Shown here: positions 1 to 5,717 of the stretch, piece by piece
Numbering within the stretch: position 1 is the stretch's first letter
Layout of the letters: each line of letters opens with the position of its first letter
Assembly: GCA_946478755.1 (NCBI GenBank)
Contig: CAMLDJ010000334.1
Span: 1 to 5,717 of the forward strand
Reading direction: 5' to 3'
Origin: an uncultured Pedobacter sp.
Lineage (GTDB): Bacteria; Bacteroidota; Bacteroidia; Sphingobacteriales; Sphingobacteriaceae
Length of the DNA stretch: 5,717 nt
Notes under the pieces: model-generated
Told to the model about the DNA's origin: nothing
The model's input: only the letters and a program-made list of their open reading frames with translations
Databases searched by the model: none
Translations under genes and position numbers: made by a program

Positions 1-39
1 AAAAATCTATGTGTGATTTATTAAAGAACTTTATGTAAA

Positions 40-74
40 CAAATATAAACGCTGAAGCCCTGATAAGAGAACAA
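40..74 (-). promoter_or_regulatory. Possible Bacteroidota promoter for a gene off the left edge
   Basis: On the minus strand a perfect TAnnTTTG box (TATATTTG) lies at 40-47, with a TTG at 72-74 as a candidate -33 element. The spacer is 24 bases, longer than the usual 19-21, so the pair is weak. No ATG follows on the minus strand between the predicted start of transcription (about 33) and base 1, so any gene served would begin outside the window. The rest of 1-234 is AT-rich and shows no gene; a 10-bp palindrome TTGTTAACAA at 78-87 is the only other small structure noticed. Confidence 0.25.
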
Positions 75-234
75 TAGTTGTTAACAAGCCGTCATTTTTA
101 TCAACAATAAAAAGAGAAACTTACCTAGTAATTACACCTGAAATTTGGTTTTTATTTCTTTTGATAACTGGAAAAATCAGAGAAATAATGTTAGTAAATT
201 CTAAAAACTGACTATAATACTGTTATGGTAAAAA

Positions 235-669
235 CTAGTCTTCTTCGGGAAGATAACTGATCTCCAATTTGGCAACGCCTTTGCCGTAAAAACCTAGGGC
301 TTTTGCTGCCGCCTCAGAAAGATCTATTTTGAATTTCCTGGAATGCGGGCCCCGGTCATTTACTTCCACCTCTACCGATTCCCCGTTTTCCGGATTCGTT
401 ACGGTAACTATGGTCCCAAAAGGCAGGGTCATATGCGCAGCAGTCATCTTTGTTCTCCGGTATCGTGCCCCGCTTGTCGTCTTTCGGCCTTCGAATTTTT
501 TTGCGTAGTATGTTGCGTAAACCGTTTTTGAGATTAATTTAGAAGAGCGATTGGATGCGTATGCTGTTGAATGATCCGGGACAGAATTTAAGCCTGTTTC
601 AGGCGCCATATCCTGGGAAAAACCCATAAAAGAAATCAGCATACCACATAACAATAAACAATACTTCAT
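235..669 (-). CDS. RlpA-like double-psi beta-barrel (DPBB) protein, secreted
   Basis: This is a 144-residue exported protein of the RlpA/DPBB family, whose characterised members act on peptidoglycan (lytic transglycosylase acting on stripped glycan strands in Pseudomonas). A hydrophobic signal peptide spans about residues 1-19, ending GFSQ with no lipobox cysteine, so the mature protein should be soluble in the periplasm. The DPBB domain fills residues 51-140 with the family landmarks: YATYYAKKFEGRKTTSG, TAAH (H79), TLPFGT, VNDRGP (D105) and IDLS. H79 and D105 correspond to the conserved His/Asp pair of RlpA. There is no SPOR domain, unlike E. coli RlpA, so septal targeting is not implied. 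I chose the start at 669 (MKYC) rather than the in-frame ATG at 699 because the latter lies inside a perfect -7 promoter box. It follows msrB on the same strand but is separated from it by a terminator and its own promoter. Domain assignment is firm; enzymatic activity is inferred. Confidence 0.88.
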   Translation of the reverse strand: MKYCLLLCGMLISFMGFSQDMAPETGLNSVPDHSTAYASNRSSKLISKTVYATYYAKKFEGRKTTSGARYRRTKMTAAHMTLPFGTIVTVTNPENGESVEVEVNDRGPHSRKFKIDLSEAAAKALGFYGKGVAKLEISYLPEED

Positions 670-692
670 ATTTACTATAGTTGGTGAACTGA

Positions 693-725
693 CAAACATA
701 AGTAAACTAAATACTTAAAAACAAG
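693..725 (-). promoter_or_regulatory. Promoter of the rlpA-like gene
   Basis: On the minus strand a perfect TAnnTTTG box (TATGTTTG, 693-700) is preceded by CTTG (722-725; consensus TTTG) with 21 bases between. This matches the Bacteroidota primary sigma factor promoter. Transcription would start near 686, leaving a 5' leader of roughly 15-20 bases before the ATG at 669. The upstream in-frame ATG (697-699) is part of the -7 box and would not be transcribed, which settles the start. Confidence 0.6.
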
Positions 726-753
726 AAATGCCCGACAAGTTATCGTCTGGCAT
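716..753 (-). terminator. Intrinsic terminator of msrB
   Basis: Reading the minus strand after the msrB stop, ATGCCAGAC and GTCGGGCAT (728-753) form a stem of nine positions with one A-G mismatch and an 8-base loop. A T-rich run (TTCTTGTTTTT, 717-727) follows. The tail contains the -33 element of the next gene's promoter, so terminator and promoter share bases. Confidence 0.6.
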
Positions 754-778
754 TAAAAAGATATCCTATTTGAAGAAA

Positions 779-1258
779 TTATTTCTTATCAGGCACAAAA
801 CTCATAGAAATAGAGTTGACACAATTACGCGTATTTTTTTCTGTGAAGCCTTCGCCTAAAAACACATGGCCTAAATGCGCCTTACAGTTTGCACATACAA
901 TCTCTGTACGCATGCCATCCCTATCAGGTATTCTTTCCACAGCACCTTTAATTTCATCATCAAAGCTCGGCCATCCGCAATGCGATTCAAATTTAGATTC
1001 AGACCGATACAAGGGTGTATTACAGCGTCTGCAGACATAAGTACCCTTCTCCTTATTATTCAACAACTTTCCGGTGCCGGGATACTCAGTACCCTTACGT
1101 ACGATTATATCCTCTTCTTCTTTGGTTAATTTATTCCATTCCATATTCCTGGTCACTTTTTTTGTATCCTCTTTTTTTGGTTGCTGAGCGCAGGCTGCGA
1201 GGTTAAATAAGATTAACAGTCCTGCGAGCGCACATATTTTATTGATCAAGGTAATCAT
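779..1258 (-). CDS. msrB: Peptide-methionine (R)-S-oxide reductase MsrB, lipoprotein form
   Basis: This 159-residue protein reduces the R-epimer of methionine sulfoxide in proteins. Residues 1-22 form a lipoprotein signal peptide ending in the lipobox LAAC (Cys23), so it is expected to be membrane-anchored outside the cytoplasm and to repair oxidised envelope proteins. The SelR/MsrB domain covers about residues 40-156: two zinc-binding CxxC pairs (C76/C79 in CRRC, C122/C125 in CANC), the HCGWPSF motif (C94), GHVF (130-133) and the catalytic-cysteine motif RNCVNS (C146). All key residues are present and the length is normal for an MsrB domain plus leader. There is no MsrA domain or msrA gene beside it. 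The gene is followed by an intrinsic terminator. Upstream I found no clean promoter; a near-match TATATTGT lies around 1277-1284. The physiological reductant is not evident from the window. Confidence 0.93.
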   Translation of the reverse strand: MITLINKICALAGLLILFNLAACAQQPKKEDTKKVTRNMEWNKLTKEEEDIIVRKGTEYPGTGKLLNNKEKGTYVCRRCNTPLYRSESKFESHCGWPSFDDEIKGAVERIPDRDGMRTEIVCANCKAHLGHVFLGEGFTEKNTRNCVNSISMSFVPDKK

Positions 1259-1367
1259 CCCAGTAGCATTTATTTATACAATATACGTCCTAAAAGTGGT
1301 TTTGGTTTATAAAACATAAAAAATGAGCATCATTATATTGTAATAAAGCAGCAAAAGATCTGATAAC

Positions 1368-1400
1368 AAAAAAAGCTCCGATGAAATTGATCACCGGAGC
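1368..1400 (-). terminator. Strong intrinsic terminator of sucD
   Basis: On the minus strand, about 35 bases past the sucD stop codon, GCTCCGGTGA and TCATCGGAGC form a 10-bp stem (one G-U pair) around the 6-base loop TCAATT. It is followed immediately by seven Ts (1368-1374). This is a textbook Rho-independent terminator and separates sucD from msrB. Confidence 0.85.
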
Positions 1401-1435
1401 CCTTAATTTATACAAGAAGATCTTATTCGAATCTA

Positions 1436-2308
1436 TTATTTTTTTAATAAGCCGGCCATTGCCGCGCCGATCTCCGCAGGGCTTTCCACAACACGGATTC
1501 CGCATTCAGCCATAATCTTCATTTTTGCCGCAGCAGTATCGTCAGCACCGCCAACAATCGCACCGGCATGCCCCATCCTACGTCCGGCAGGAGCAGTTTG
1601 TCCGGCTATAAAGCCTACTACAGGCTTTGTGCCATTTTCTTTAATCCAGCGTGCAGCTTCAGCTTCCATGCCACCACCAATTTCACCAATCATAATGATA
1701 CCTTCGGTTTCAGGATCGTTCATCAGCAATTCAACCGCTTCTTTCGTAGTTGTACCAATGATCGGGTCACCACCGATACCAATGGCAGTCGTGATCCCCA
1801 GTCCGGCTTTCACAACCTGATCTACCGCCTCATAAGTTAAAGTACCAGATTTAGATACCACCCCTACTGTGCCTTTTTTAAAGATAAAGCCTGGCATGAT
1901 ACCAATTTTAGCTTCATCAGCAGTAATCACACCCGGACAGTTAGGACCGATCAAGCGGCAATCCCTGTCAGAAATATATTCTTTAACCTGAATCATATCC
2001 TTTGTAGGGATTCCTTCAGTAATACAGACAATAACTTTAATTCCTGCTTCGGCAGCTTCCATGATGGCATCTGCTGCAAACGCCGGTGGAACAAAAATGA
2101 TAGATACATTTGCGCCAGCCTTATCAACCGCATCTTTTACAGTATTAAAAACCGGTTTGTCTAAATGAGTTTGACCGCCTTTGCCAGGTGTTACCCCACC
2201 AACGACGTTCGTTCCGTACTCTATCATTTGAGAAGCGTGATAAGTACCCTCATTTCCAGTAAAACCCTGAACAATAACTTTTGAATCTTTATTTACTAAA
2301 ACACTCAT
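1436..2308 (-). CDS. sucD: Succinate-CoA ligase (ADP/GDP-forming) subunit alpha
   Basis: SucD pairs with the beta subunit SucC to interconvert succinyl-CoA and succinate with substrate-level formation of a nucleoside triphosphate, a TCA-cycle step in the cytoplasm. The 290-residue length is the usual full length. The N-terminal CoA-binding Rossmann domain starts with [11 protein letters not shown] (residues 14-24), and PGKGG (41-45) follows. The ligase domain contains IGPNCPG (120-126), SKSGTLTYE (152-160), GIGGDP (177-182) and the phosphohistidine loop GHAGAIVGG with active-site His247. ATG at 2308 is placed correctly after a very good promoter, with an A-rich leader (AATAAAGATA) instead of a Shine-Dalgarno site. 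sucC is not adjacent: the flanking genes are unrelated, so the two subunits must be encoded at separate loci or sucC lies outside the window. The gene looks monocistronic, with its own promoter (2330-2361) and terminator (1368-1400). Confidence 0.97.
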
Positions 2309-2329
2309 GTATCTTTATTTTTTTTTGTG

Positions 2330-2361
2330 CAAAGCTAAGCTAATTGAGATGTAATGTCAAA
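2330..2361 (-). promoter_or_regulatory. Bacteroidota-type promoter of sucD
   Basis: On the minus strand a perfect TTTG (2358-2361) is followed after exactly 20 bases by a perfect TAnnTTTG box, TAGCTTTG (2330-2337). Both elements and the spacing match the Bacteroidota housekeeping consensus. Transcription would start near 2323, about 15 bases before the sucD ATG. It lies in the 75-base gap behind the TMEM175-like gene and is the best promoter in the window. Confidence 0.75.
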
Positions 2362-2383
2362 TGCAATAGAAACTTTATTACAT

Positions 2384-2971
2384 TTATTCCAGGTCTTGGT
2401 TTTGAATTGTTTTTTCTACCCTCATATCGGGCACAAACCAAACCACTGCCACCAGAACATACCCAAAAATACCCAGCCAGGGGCTTAAAAAGCTACCTGC
2501 AATACTCAAAACATAAATACCCGTTGAAATTTTTCCTTTAATATCAGCGCCATAAGCTTTCGCCAGGCCAGAATTCGCTCCATGTAGTGTCACAAGTGCT
2601 CTTTCGAGGATAAAGTAAGCGATGGAAGTCATCAATGCCACCAGACCATAAATAATTACCGGCCAGGCCTGGAAATGGTTCTCCCCCATCCACGCAGTGG
2701 CAAAAGGAAACAGCGAAAGCCAGAAGAGCAGATGTAGATTTGTCCATAGTACTTTTCCGTTCACTTTTTTTACCAATTGCATCATATGGTGATGGTTGTT
2801 CCAGTATATAGCTACATAAATGAAGCTGAGCACATAACTCATAAATACAGGTACCAGGGGAATTAAGTCGACCAATGCAGCTCCGTGAGGAACCTTTAAT
2901 TCCAACACCATGATCGTAATGATGATGGCCAGTACACCATCGCTAAAAGCCTCTAATCTGTTTTTATTCAT
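2384..2971 (-). CDS. TMEM175-family (DUF1211) integral membrane protein, putative potassium channel
   Basis: This 195-residue membrane protein carries the family signature near its N terminus: R5-x3-FSDGVLAIIITI (residues 9-20). In characterised TMEM175 proteins this FSD motif lies on the first helix, which lines the pore of a potassium-permeable channel. About six hydrophobic segments are visible (roughly 12-25, 37-57, 75-93, 103-124, 148-163 and 165-181), as expected for a bacterial one-repeat homologue that assembles as a tetramer. YWNNHHHMM (56-64) after the second segment is also typical of the family. The start at 2971 gives the normal short N terminus before the motif. It is divergent from the orphan gene at 3094 and upstream of sucD on the same strand, but I see no terminator between them, so some readthrough into sucD is possible. 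Family membership is clear; ion selectivity is inferred from homologues and cannot be judged here. Confidence 0.88.
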   Translation of the reverse strand: MNKNRLEAFSDGVLAIIITIMVLELKVPHGAALVDLIPLVPVFMSYVLSFIYVAIYWNNHHHMMQLVKKVNGKVLWTNLHLLFWLSLFPFATAWMGENHFQAWPVIIYGLVALMTSIAYFILERALVTLHGANSGLAKAYGADIKGKISTGIYVLSIAGSFLSPWLGIFGYVLVAVVWFVPDMRVEKTIQNQDLE

Positions 2972-2996
2972 AAATTATTTACCGCAACCAGTTTGA

Positions 2997-3030
2997 CAAA
3001 GGAATAAATTTTACCGGATTTTATGCCCAA
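2997..3030 (-). promoter_or_regulatory. Possible promoter of the TMEM175-like gene
   Basis: On the minus strand TTCCTTTG (2997-3004; one mismatch to TAnnTTTG) is preceded after 23 bases by TTG (3028-3030). Transcription would start about 20 bases before the ATG at 2971. The spacing is at the long end and the -7 box is imperfect. Confidence 0.3.
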
Positions 3031-3051
3031 GACAAAGGTAATTTTATTTTA

Positions 3052-3059
3052 TATATTTG
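3052..3059 (+). promoter_or_regulatory. Candidate -7 box of the orphan gene at 3094
   Basis: A perfect TAnnTTTG box (TATATTTG) lies 34 bases upstream of the ATG at 3094. No TTG or TTTG stands at the expected -33 distance, so this is only half a promoter. If used, the leader would be about 25-30 bases. Confidence 0.35.
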
Positions 3060-3093
3060 GCCATGATGCCTGTGTTCATCAAAACCTGCTTAC

Positions 3094-3525
3094 ATGGAAC
3101 CACTAAAGATCTATTTTAAAATATTAAAATCCGGGAACGGAAAGCTGTTAAAAAACAGAGATGAAGTCAACAACCTTATTGTGGATGTGATCAACAGAAA
3201 TCCGAGTCAGCCTGCAGCAGGTTTACGGGAACTGGCCATCCATGAGCTGTCCAACACCGCTGCCGGACAGCAAGTCCTGCGGTCGAACAGTAGTTTCTTT
3301 ATCAGGGAAGCAACAGACATCGAGGTGGTCATTTCCTTTTTGCCGGAAGAAAAATCAATACAAGAGCAGTTTTACACCCAGTGGAGATATGTTCAGCACT
3401 CTTTACCTTACCGGTTGGTGCAATATCTGGATGAGCACAAAGTTGTAGTATACAGTGAAAAGACAAGAGTTCTGCATACCATTAAACTAAGCAAAGACAT
3501 GACCGTTGTAGTGCATGAAGATTAA
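3094..3525 (+). CDS. Hypothetical protein, no family recognised
   Basis: This is a 143-residue, cysteine-free, soluble-looking protein that I do not recognise. It has no signal peptide or membrane segment. The pattern suggests an alpha/beta fold: a strand-like start (LKIYFKIL, 4-11), an amphipathic stretch with NNLIVDVINRNP, a helical GLRELAIHEL region (43-52), a strand EVVISFLPEE (77-86), an aromatic helix around QFYTQWRYVQ, and C-terminal strands KVVVYSE and MTVVVHED. The 432-base open frame, balanced codon use and a TAnnTTTG box upstream support it as real. No Shine-Dalgarno site precedes the ATG, which is normal in this phylum. It runs divergently from the TMEM175-like gene and converges on the solute-binding gene, overlapping it by 4 bp so that both stop codons share bases. 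No terminator is visible after it. Its function is unknown. Confidence 0.65.
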   Translation: MEPLKIYFKILKSGNGKLLKNRDEVNNLIVDVINRNPSQPAAGLRELAIHELSNTAAGQQVLRSNSSFFIREATDIEVVISFLPEEKSIQEQFYTQWRYVQHSLPYRLVQYLDEHKVVVYSEKTRVLHTIKLSKDMTVVVHED

Positions 3526-4208
3526 AACTGGATTTCACTGAACCATTTCTTATAAATGTTCTGATAGGTCCCATTTTCTTTAAGCGCGGTCAGCGCATCG
3601 TTAAACTGCTTTTTGAGTTGCATATCGCCCTTTTTCATCGCTATCGCATAAGACGAATCGGTCTTAGGCAGAAACATTCCTATCTTCAGCTTTTTATTCT
3701 TTTGCAGGAAACCACCCGCTATAGGGGAATCATCAACCAGGAGATCTATTTTTCCGGCCTGTAGCTTTCTGTATAATTCCTTATTGGTTACCGCATAGAC
3801 AATATTATTGGCGGGGAACGCTGCACGGACGTATCTTTCAGCTTCCGTAGCTTCCCTTACGCCTATGGTTTTGTTTTTAAAATGGTGTAAACCGCTTAAT
3901 GAATCTTCCCTGGCTACTACCGCACATAGCCTGAAATAAAGATAAGGATTACTAAATTCAAGAATATGCTGACGGGAGGAGGTGACGGTGACCGCAGAGC
4001 AGATAATATCCAACTCGCCTTTAAATAGCTTTTCCAGGATCGTCGACCATAGGGAAACTTCATATTGGATTTCTAAATTGAGTTGAGCTGTCATGGCCTG
4101 GAGTAAATCGACCTCAAATCCTTCAAAATTGTCAGCGTTATAATCTGAGTGCATCGGAAATGGTGCTGCAGAATCCAAACCGACTTTTAATATCTTCTTG
4201 TTGGTCAT
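3522..4208 (-). CDS. Solute-binding protein family 3 domain protein, apparently without signal peptide
   Basis: The 228 residues make up one complete periplasmic-binding-protein-like (SBP_bac_3) domain, the type that binds amino acids for ABC importers. Visible landmarks are the start strand LKVGLDSAAPFPM (7-19), the family signature GFEVDLLQAM (30-39), GELDIICSAVTVTSSR (64-79, where R79 corresponds to the ligand-carboxylate arginine), FSNPYL (85-90), the second-lobe entry TIGVREATEAE (114-124), DLLVDDSP (155-162) with the aspartates that often contact the ligand amino group, and a C-terminal YKKWF helix. Both lobes are intact. What is odd is the N terminus: the domain begins seven residues after the ATG, with no hydrophobic leader or lipobox. 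The upstream frame hits a stop (TGA) before any other ATG, so no longer start exists. No permease or ATPase gene is nearby. It may be a cytoplasmic sensor-like binding protein or be exported by an unseen route. The domain call is firm; the role is open. Confidence 0.85.
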   Translation of the reverse strand: MTNKKILKVGLDSAAPFPMHSDYNADNFEGFEVDLLQAMTAQLNLEIQYEVSLWSTILEKLFKGELDIICSAVTVTSSRQHILEFSNPYLYFRLCAVVAREDSLSGLHHFKNKTIGVREATEAERYVRAAFPANNIVYAVTNKELYRKLQAGKIDLLVDDSPIAGGFLQKNKKLKIGMFLPKTDSSYAIAMKKGDMQLKKQFNDALTALKENGTYQNIYKKWFSEIQF

Positions 4209-4689
4209 ACAATAAGGTTTAAACTCCCTGTCTCATTAAAATAAGCGCGATTACAGCCGGGATCTCTACAAATAACAACAAAAAAAATCAAATAGCACCG
4301 TAATTAAACCAGTTTTACCCACAAAAATCCATGAGGAGACCAAACTTTCCCCTGCATCATTAAAAAAGACAAAAAAAGTCAACATTCGACAGGTGTTTTT
4401 TTTTGCTAAAAAGCCGGATAAAGACAAATGATCTACAGCTTGGGAAAGAACATCCTAAACTATTTCTTGACTCATTTGTTTGGTTGCCAACGAGGTAAAA
4501 TTCCTTCAAAGGGCAAAAAAAATCAGTTCTGGCGCTGCCTTCGTATCATTTCTGATATCGAATAAGAAAAATAAACCAAATGTCGTTTAGATTGTTTAGG
4601 CATCATTACGATACGAATAAAAATAAAACGAAATAAAATTAACCAGACAAATATTTAAACTAATATATTTACATCAAAAAACGCCAAAT
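4209..4689. other. 481-bp AT-rich intergenic region without a convincing gene
   Basis: This gap separates the minus-strand solute-binding gene from the plus-strand NUMOD gene, so it should carry both promoters. I found no clean TTTG/TAnnTTTG pair for the minus gene. For the plus gene, TATATTTA (4664-4671) matches TAnnTTTG except at the last base and sits about 20 bases before the ATG, with no good -33 element. Other content: a T9 run (4396-4404); an 8-bp inverted repeat TTCGTATC (4540-4547) / GATACGAA (4610-4617) with a 62-base spacer; and a 45-codon open frame (4428-4565, plus) without a ribosome-binding signal. The last ~60 bases are very A/T-rich, as in many upstream promoter regions. Confidence 0.5.
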
Positions 4690-5430
4690 ATGAATTATCC
4701 ATATGAAAACCTTTCGCCTGATGCGCTCCCAGGCGAGCTATGGGCACCTATTCCAAAACTGGATGCGCCGTATGAGGTTTCAAATCTAGGGAGGGTACGC
4801 AGATTGGAGAAAAACTCCATTGATAAAAAAGGCATAACAAGGCACAAGCCATGCATGATCATTAAAACTATAATTTCTGAAAGCCAGAATTTGCAAACCG
4901 GTGATACGGCTAAATATGCCGGCATTACTTTGTCATCAGCGAATAAAAGACATTATCTGAGTATCGCACGGTTGGTTTATTACTGCTTTGTAGAAGAGTT
5001 TGACCTCTCAAACAAACAGCTTCTGGTGTTCCCCAGGGACGGCGACAACCTAAATCTGCGTGCAGAAAATTTGCTATTGGGCACCCCAAAAGACAAAGCA
5101 GCACGGATGATGGCTTCGGGAAGAAGAAGAACTTTTTTTCCTGAATTCAGTGAAGAATCAAAGCAAAAAAGCCGTGAAAAAATAACAGCTACCAAAAAGG
5201 CAAAGGGTACGTATAATGTCAGCCGCTATTCCTTAACCGGTCAGTTGCTGGAAACTTATTCGAATGCGAGGATTGCTGCAGAAGCAATGAATACAGCACA
5301 GGGTTACATCTCCATTGCCGCCCGGGATACCGGTAAAGTTGTCACAGCCTGTGGGTACCTTTGGAGACGTGGCAGTGAACCTGAACTGGACCTCAAACCC
5401 ATTCTGAAAGAAAGGTGGTATGGCCATTCC
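4690..5430 (+). CDS. NUMOD4/NUMOD1-type DNA-binding protein with degenerate HNH-like core, 3' end lost at a junction
   Basis: From the ATG at 4690 the frame gives about 247 residues before the sequence changes character. Residues 16-39 (ELWAPIP, then [12 protein letters not shown]) are a NUMOD4 motif, a small DNA-binding module found next to HNH homing endonucleases. Residues 92-132 hold an HNH-like region (RLVYYCF, then [19 protein letters not shown]): the D-G-D, N-L-R and ENL framework of HNH_3 nucleases is kept, but the usual paired histidines are replaced by F114 and P115, so cleavage activity is doubtful. Residues 180-225 ([20 protein letters not shown], ending GYLWRR) look like a NUMOD1 helix-turn-helix repeat. 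A basic linker (about 143-175) joins the two parts. Proteins of this plan occur as stand-alone genes in Bacteroidota. The true C terminus is missing: near 5430 the frame continues without a stop into xylose isomerase sequence. The domain calls are made by eye from motifs; its role (regulator or relic of a homing nuclease) is unknown. Confidence 0.75.
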
Positions 5431-5434
5431 TACA
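5425..5434. other. Probable chimeric junction between Bacteroidota DNA and high-GC proteobacterial DNA
   Basis: Xylose isomerase similarity begins abruptly at the TAC codon at 5431. By hand count, third codon positions are G or C in 32 of the last 68 codons before the join and in 85 of the 95 codons after it; overall GC is about 52% in 5221-5400 and about 65% in 5461-5640. The residue just before the similarity (Ser, where XylA normally has Arg) suggests the break lies within a few bases of 5431. Confidence 0.8.
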
Positions 5435-5717
5435 TGGCCGGCGCTGCCACCAACCCCGATCCGGCCGTGTTCGCCTATGCCGCCGGGCAGGTGAAGGAGA
5501 TGCTTGAGATCACCCATGATCTCGGCGGGTCGAACTACGTGCTGTGGGGCGGCCGCGAAGGCTACGAGACGCTGCTCAACACCCGCATCAAGGAAGAGCA
5601 GGATCACGCCGCGCGCTTCCTCGGCCTCGTCATCGAGCACGCCAAGAAGATCGGCTTCAAGGGCCAGATCCTGATCGAACCCAAGCCGCAGGAGCCGACC
5701 AAGCACCAGTACGACTA
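5431..5717 (+). CDS. xylA: Xylose isomerase fragment (internal part), high-GC origin, cut at both ends
   Basis: The last 95 complete codons encode an internal piece of xylose isomerase, the cytoplasmic metal-dependent enzyme that converts D-xylose to D-xylulose. The diagnostic motifs are [32 protein letters not shown] and [15 protein letters not shown]. They align without gaps to about residues 150-244 of the 440-residue E. coli enzyme. Key positions are retained: the active-site Trp (E. coli W188) in VLWGG, and the metal-bridging Glu (E232) and nearby Lys (K234) in IEPKP. The first ~149 residues, with the catalytic His101/Asp104 pair, are absent and replaced in frame by the NUMOD protein; the C-terminal half lies beyond the window. 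The M-A-G-A-A variant, the very high third-position GC and codons such as CTC, GCC and GGC point to an alphaproteobacterial source. As it stands it cannot form an active enzyme. It is best regarded as foreign sequence fused at a contig end. Confidence 0.9.

Follow-up and report, generated by a model that had tools for sequence, protein, structure and literature searches.

The open frame at the contig end

The window, by which we mean the whole 5,717-nucleotide stretch analysed, is a contig from an uncultured Pedobacter sp. In the open reading frame list, a frame of 342 aa occupies positions 4690-5715 of the plus strand and runs without a stop to the window end, as the initial annotation had described. 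Its first 247 codons or so belong to a Pedobacter NUMOD gene, and the remaining 95 are an internal portion of an alphaproteobacterial xylA that, on the basis of protein identity, we call Devosia-like. The features are as follows.

4690-5430, plus strand: 5' part of a NUMOD4/NUMOD1 gene, about 247 codons, 3' end lost (98% aa identity to locus L001; NUMOD4 at 30 bits)
5429-5431, no strand: join, with base 5430 compatible with both sources (ends and starts of the matches; GC3 change point at 5428)
5431-5717, plus strand: internal fragment of xylA, alphaproteobacterial (Devosia-like), residues 149-243 of 435, reaching the window end (97.9% identity to P0017; family models)

On the minus strand, a 160-aa open frame (5233-5715) likewise spans the join, which shows that frames stay open easily in the GC-rich piece.

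The Pedobacter NUMOD gene

The N-terminal part of the frame carries a NUMOD4 domain at residues 16-51, which scores 30 bits in Pfam, above the gathering cut-off of 23.4. HNH_3 reaches 14 bits in the window protein, below its gathering score of 24.8, and Pfam reports no NUMOD1 there at E ≤ 0.1. A weak internal repeat at 5173-5430 is 32% identical to a later part of P0001. In none of five intact relatives does the best NUMOD1 stretch lie before residue 256. Therefore, of the "NUMOD4/NUMOD1-type" label in the initial annotation, the NUMOD4 part holds for the window protein itself, and the NUMOD1 part comes mainly from the relatives.

In a genome scan with each species represented once, relatives of the NUMOD protein are found at 18 loci, four in Pedobacter (L001-L004, 87-98% identity) and 14 in Chryseobacterium (26-58% over the best segment). 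The closest, L001, shows 98% aa identity over residues 1-244 and 84% DNA identity over 4561-5429. Two Pedobacter NUMOD4/NUMOD1 proteins, P0001 and P0002, are 90% and 87% identical over residues 1-245. Apart from unaligned gaps, window bases 1-5429 are collinear with L001, L002, and L003; L004 is collinear from base 3047 only. The largest gap relative to L001 (2437-3091) covers most of the gene at 2384-2971 and corresponds to about 40 bases in L001. L001, otherwise a close relative, thus seems to be without this gene at this place, whereas L002 and L003 align across it. The intergenic region upstream of the NUMOD gene (4298-4560) is unaligned to L001-L004, though both of its flanks align.

Compared base by base over 5281-5717, L001 and the window are alike to 5429 and unlike beyond. 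We follow the gene past this point in 11 genomes of the genus, leaving out a twelfth (G033) with a 44-base match only. In six of them (L001/L024, L002/L029, L003/L026, L004/L027, L025, and L028), the NUMOD gene extends beyond the join point as far as residue 408-410. In the other five (L030, L031, L033, L034, and L035), the aligned part, which is without the N-terminal side, also passes it. Therefore, the join interrupts a gene that the relatives have in intact form.

The intact protein of about 408 aa (L001, L002, L003, L004, L025, and L028) has NUMOD4 and two or three NUMOD1, with HNH_3 below the cut-off or absent. What we take to be the expected HNH His site reads LLVFPRDGD in the intact Pedobacter protein; this protein may be a DNA-binding relative of homing endonucleases that lacks the nuclease and is fixed in the chromosome. 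One genome of the genus, G072, has a full NUMOD gene and, elsewhere (G072:C1:987225-987255), a weak second match of 31 bases (90%) to window 5401-5431, possibly a paralogue.

The xylose isomerase fragment

In NCBIfam, residues 247-342 of the frame align with positions 149-244 of the 439 in the xylose isomerase model NF003998 (E 7.1e-49), in agreement with the E. coli residues 150-244 named in the initial annotation. The scores stay below the family cut-offs (167 bits versus 459 for NF003998; 166 versus 533 for TIGR02630), for NF003998 because only a fragment is present. Since the window ends inside xylA, a test for full length is informative only as to the absent N-terminal side. In accordance with the initial annotation, which had reported no N-terminal XylA part upstream, a tblastn search of the window with three XylA queries detects no other significant XylA-like stretch, the N-terminal third included; the next match has an E value of 0.49. 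The missing third presumably includes the catalytic His/Asp pair, which we place near 101-104 in E. coli XylA.

Translated from 5431 on, the 95 codons share 97.9% identity with P0017, a xylose isomerase of 435 aa, over its residues 149-243. Among the best 120 of 7999 scored proteins, the named taxa are six Devosia, one Devosiaceae, and one Hyphomicrobiales, the best named one at 93% identity; the top 41 of these 120 carry no taxon name. The initial annotation had proposed searching the two halves separately, and they indeed fall in different phyla, Pedobacter on one side and Devosia-like alphaproteobacteria on the other.

The xylA piece also has matches in 122 records of the plasmid collection, mostly alphaproteobacterial by genus name and all at 60-80% DNA identity. 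The best identity is 77%, so these plasmids provide no near source. The donor DNA itself was not found, and xylA of Shinella and other plasmids (best 77%) serve as stand-ins. A phage origin was also considered and rejected; the phage collection has no match to 4300-5717.

The switch in similarity and composition

The similarity to Pedobacter stops at 5429 or 5430, or at 5431 in the weak 31-base match of G072, and the similarity to xylA starts at 5430 or 5431. The switch at 5431 given in the initial annotation therefore stands for the start of XylA and needs a small correction for the end of the Pedobacter part. Base 5430 is variable in the six full-length relatives (A in L001, G in L002, L003, and L025, T in L004, and C in L028). 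It is C in the Shinella xylA (L023), our proxy for the donor, which differs from Pedobacter one base earlier. Thus, judged from these alignments, no more than one base at the join seems to be common to both sources.

The composition changes at the same place. The GC3 is 43% over 4690-5430 and 89% over 5431-5715, compared with 35-48% in the six other genes of the window. A single change point fitted to the third positions falls at nt 5428, with a likelihood gain that is equalled in none of 1000 shuffles. The claimed jump within a few codons of 5431 is thus confirmed, as is its upper value; the value on the NUMOD side is 43% instead of about 47%.

Search for the same join elsewhere

The join is not found outside the window in the sequences searched. 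In the genus of G001, 22 of 145 genomes match 5230-5717 (at most four candidates scored per genome), giving 25 match rows. Of these, 13 fall on the NUMOD part and 12 on xylA, and none reaches more than 2 bases beyond the join. In a set of 5.8 billion proteins, 16 resemble residues 1-245, and the precomputed Pfam lists of these 16 contain no xylose isomerase domain. The permitted lengths were 0.55-1.75 times 342 residues, so a full fusion of about 530 aa is within range. With residues 206-286 as the query, no fused protein is present among the best 120 of 863 matches listed from the same set. One candidate, P0140 (435 aa), seemed to span the join, with 93% coverage of this region, but it proves to be a normal XylA of full length, with weak and scattered similarity upstream of the join. 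The same join in independent genomes, which according to the initial annotation would refute an assembly artefact, is therefore not seen in the 145 genomes, the 16 proteins, or the best 120 of the 863 matches listed.

Origin of the join

We conclude, with a probability of about 0.93, that the window is probably a Pedobacter contig whose final 287 bases derive from another organism, i.e., that the contig end is chimeric. The initial annotation had named this as the likely cause, and our comparisons support it: the halves come from different phyla with an abrupt switch, a gene intact in relatives is cut, the foreign piece of 287 bases lies at the window end, and the join is absent from the related genomes and independent sequences examined. 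The source could be one already chimeric DNA molecule or read, produced by fragment ligation, by template switching, or as a merged or concatenated read. Such a molecule or read would lengthen a contig tip of thin coverage, adding less than roughly the length of one fragment, and foreign sequence confined to the 287 bases up to the window end is as expected if one fragment extended the tip. Because at most one base is shared, the assembler is unlikely to have made a simple overlap (k-mer) misjoin, and an already chimeric molecule or read is likelier. A common short read does not reach 287 bases on its own, so the piece would have to come from a merged pair, from a long read, or from two or more reads. 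Counted against a chimera is the reading frame kept across the join. The chance of this is one in three, as first estimated, if the fragment is fixed on this strand, and one in six with free orientation; we infer that the open frame is a coincidence.

If illegitimate recombination had really occurred in a Pedobacter cell, it would have placed Devosia-like DNA with a 5'-truncated xylA inside the NUMOD gene and broken both genes at this end. About one shared base is also typical of non-homologous recombination, and in sequence alone a real blunt join and a chimeric molecule look alike. However, the join is not seen in any of the 145 genomes, the very short foreign DNA extends to the window end, its composition is fully donor-like, and the region has no phage match. 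We thus regard recombination as improbable. The most novel form of this reading, that a Pedobacter lineage acquired Devosia-like DNA into its NUMOD gene, with a composition not yet adapted and a longer transferred segment hidden by the contig end, is just as improbable. Still less credible is an assembly error or a rearrangement within one genome that moved a fragment of Pedobacter's own xylA beside the NUMOD gene. All four Pedobacter genomes tested do have their own full-length XylA, but it is only 51-53% identical to P0017, compared with 97.9% for the fragment, and the GC3 of the fragment is far from that of the other window genes; we reject it as the source.

A functional NUMOD-xylose isomerase fusion is equally hard to credit. 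The frame is open through the join, but XylA starts only at residue 149 of its 435, with the first third missing, the NUMOD gene has lost about 160 C-terminal codons that the relatives keep, and the searches above reveal no comparable fusion. Because both partners are truncated at the join and no such fusion is seen in these searches, we reject this reading, in agreement with the earlier judgement that a functional fusion enzyme is implausible. The NUMOD-XylA fusion protein suggested by the frame is almost certainly spurious. Unless the contig is trimmed, protein databases could list the frame as a false fusion of NUMOD and xylose isomerase, and such an entry could seed false claims on domain architecture or gene transfer. 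The remedy is to trim the contig at 5429/5430.

Comparison with known systems

The gene neighbourhood of the window NUMOD gene is as in L001-L004. Compared with P0001 and P0002, however, the window protein stops at residue 246-247, whereas the relatives are about 160 residues longer and carry most of the NUMOD1 repeats in that part. The XylA fragment resembles xylose isomerases of the Devosia type (TIGR02630, NF003998) over its 95 aa, but unlike a full-length XylA it comprises only the internal portion matching P0017, without the N-terminal part. A literature search combining spurious gene fusions with chimeric metagenome contigs yielded no paper that contained all five terms. Chimeric reads that yield chimeric contigs in genome and metagenome assembly are described in excerpts of PMC8862349 and PMC5015205. 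According to these excerpts, the cases differ from the window in being viral long-read metagenomes and phi29-amplified viral RNA. They resemble it in that two unrelated sources are abruptly joined, with reads concatenating segments of different origin.
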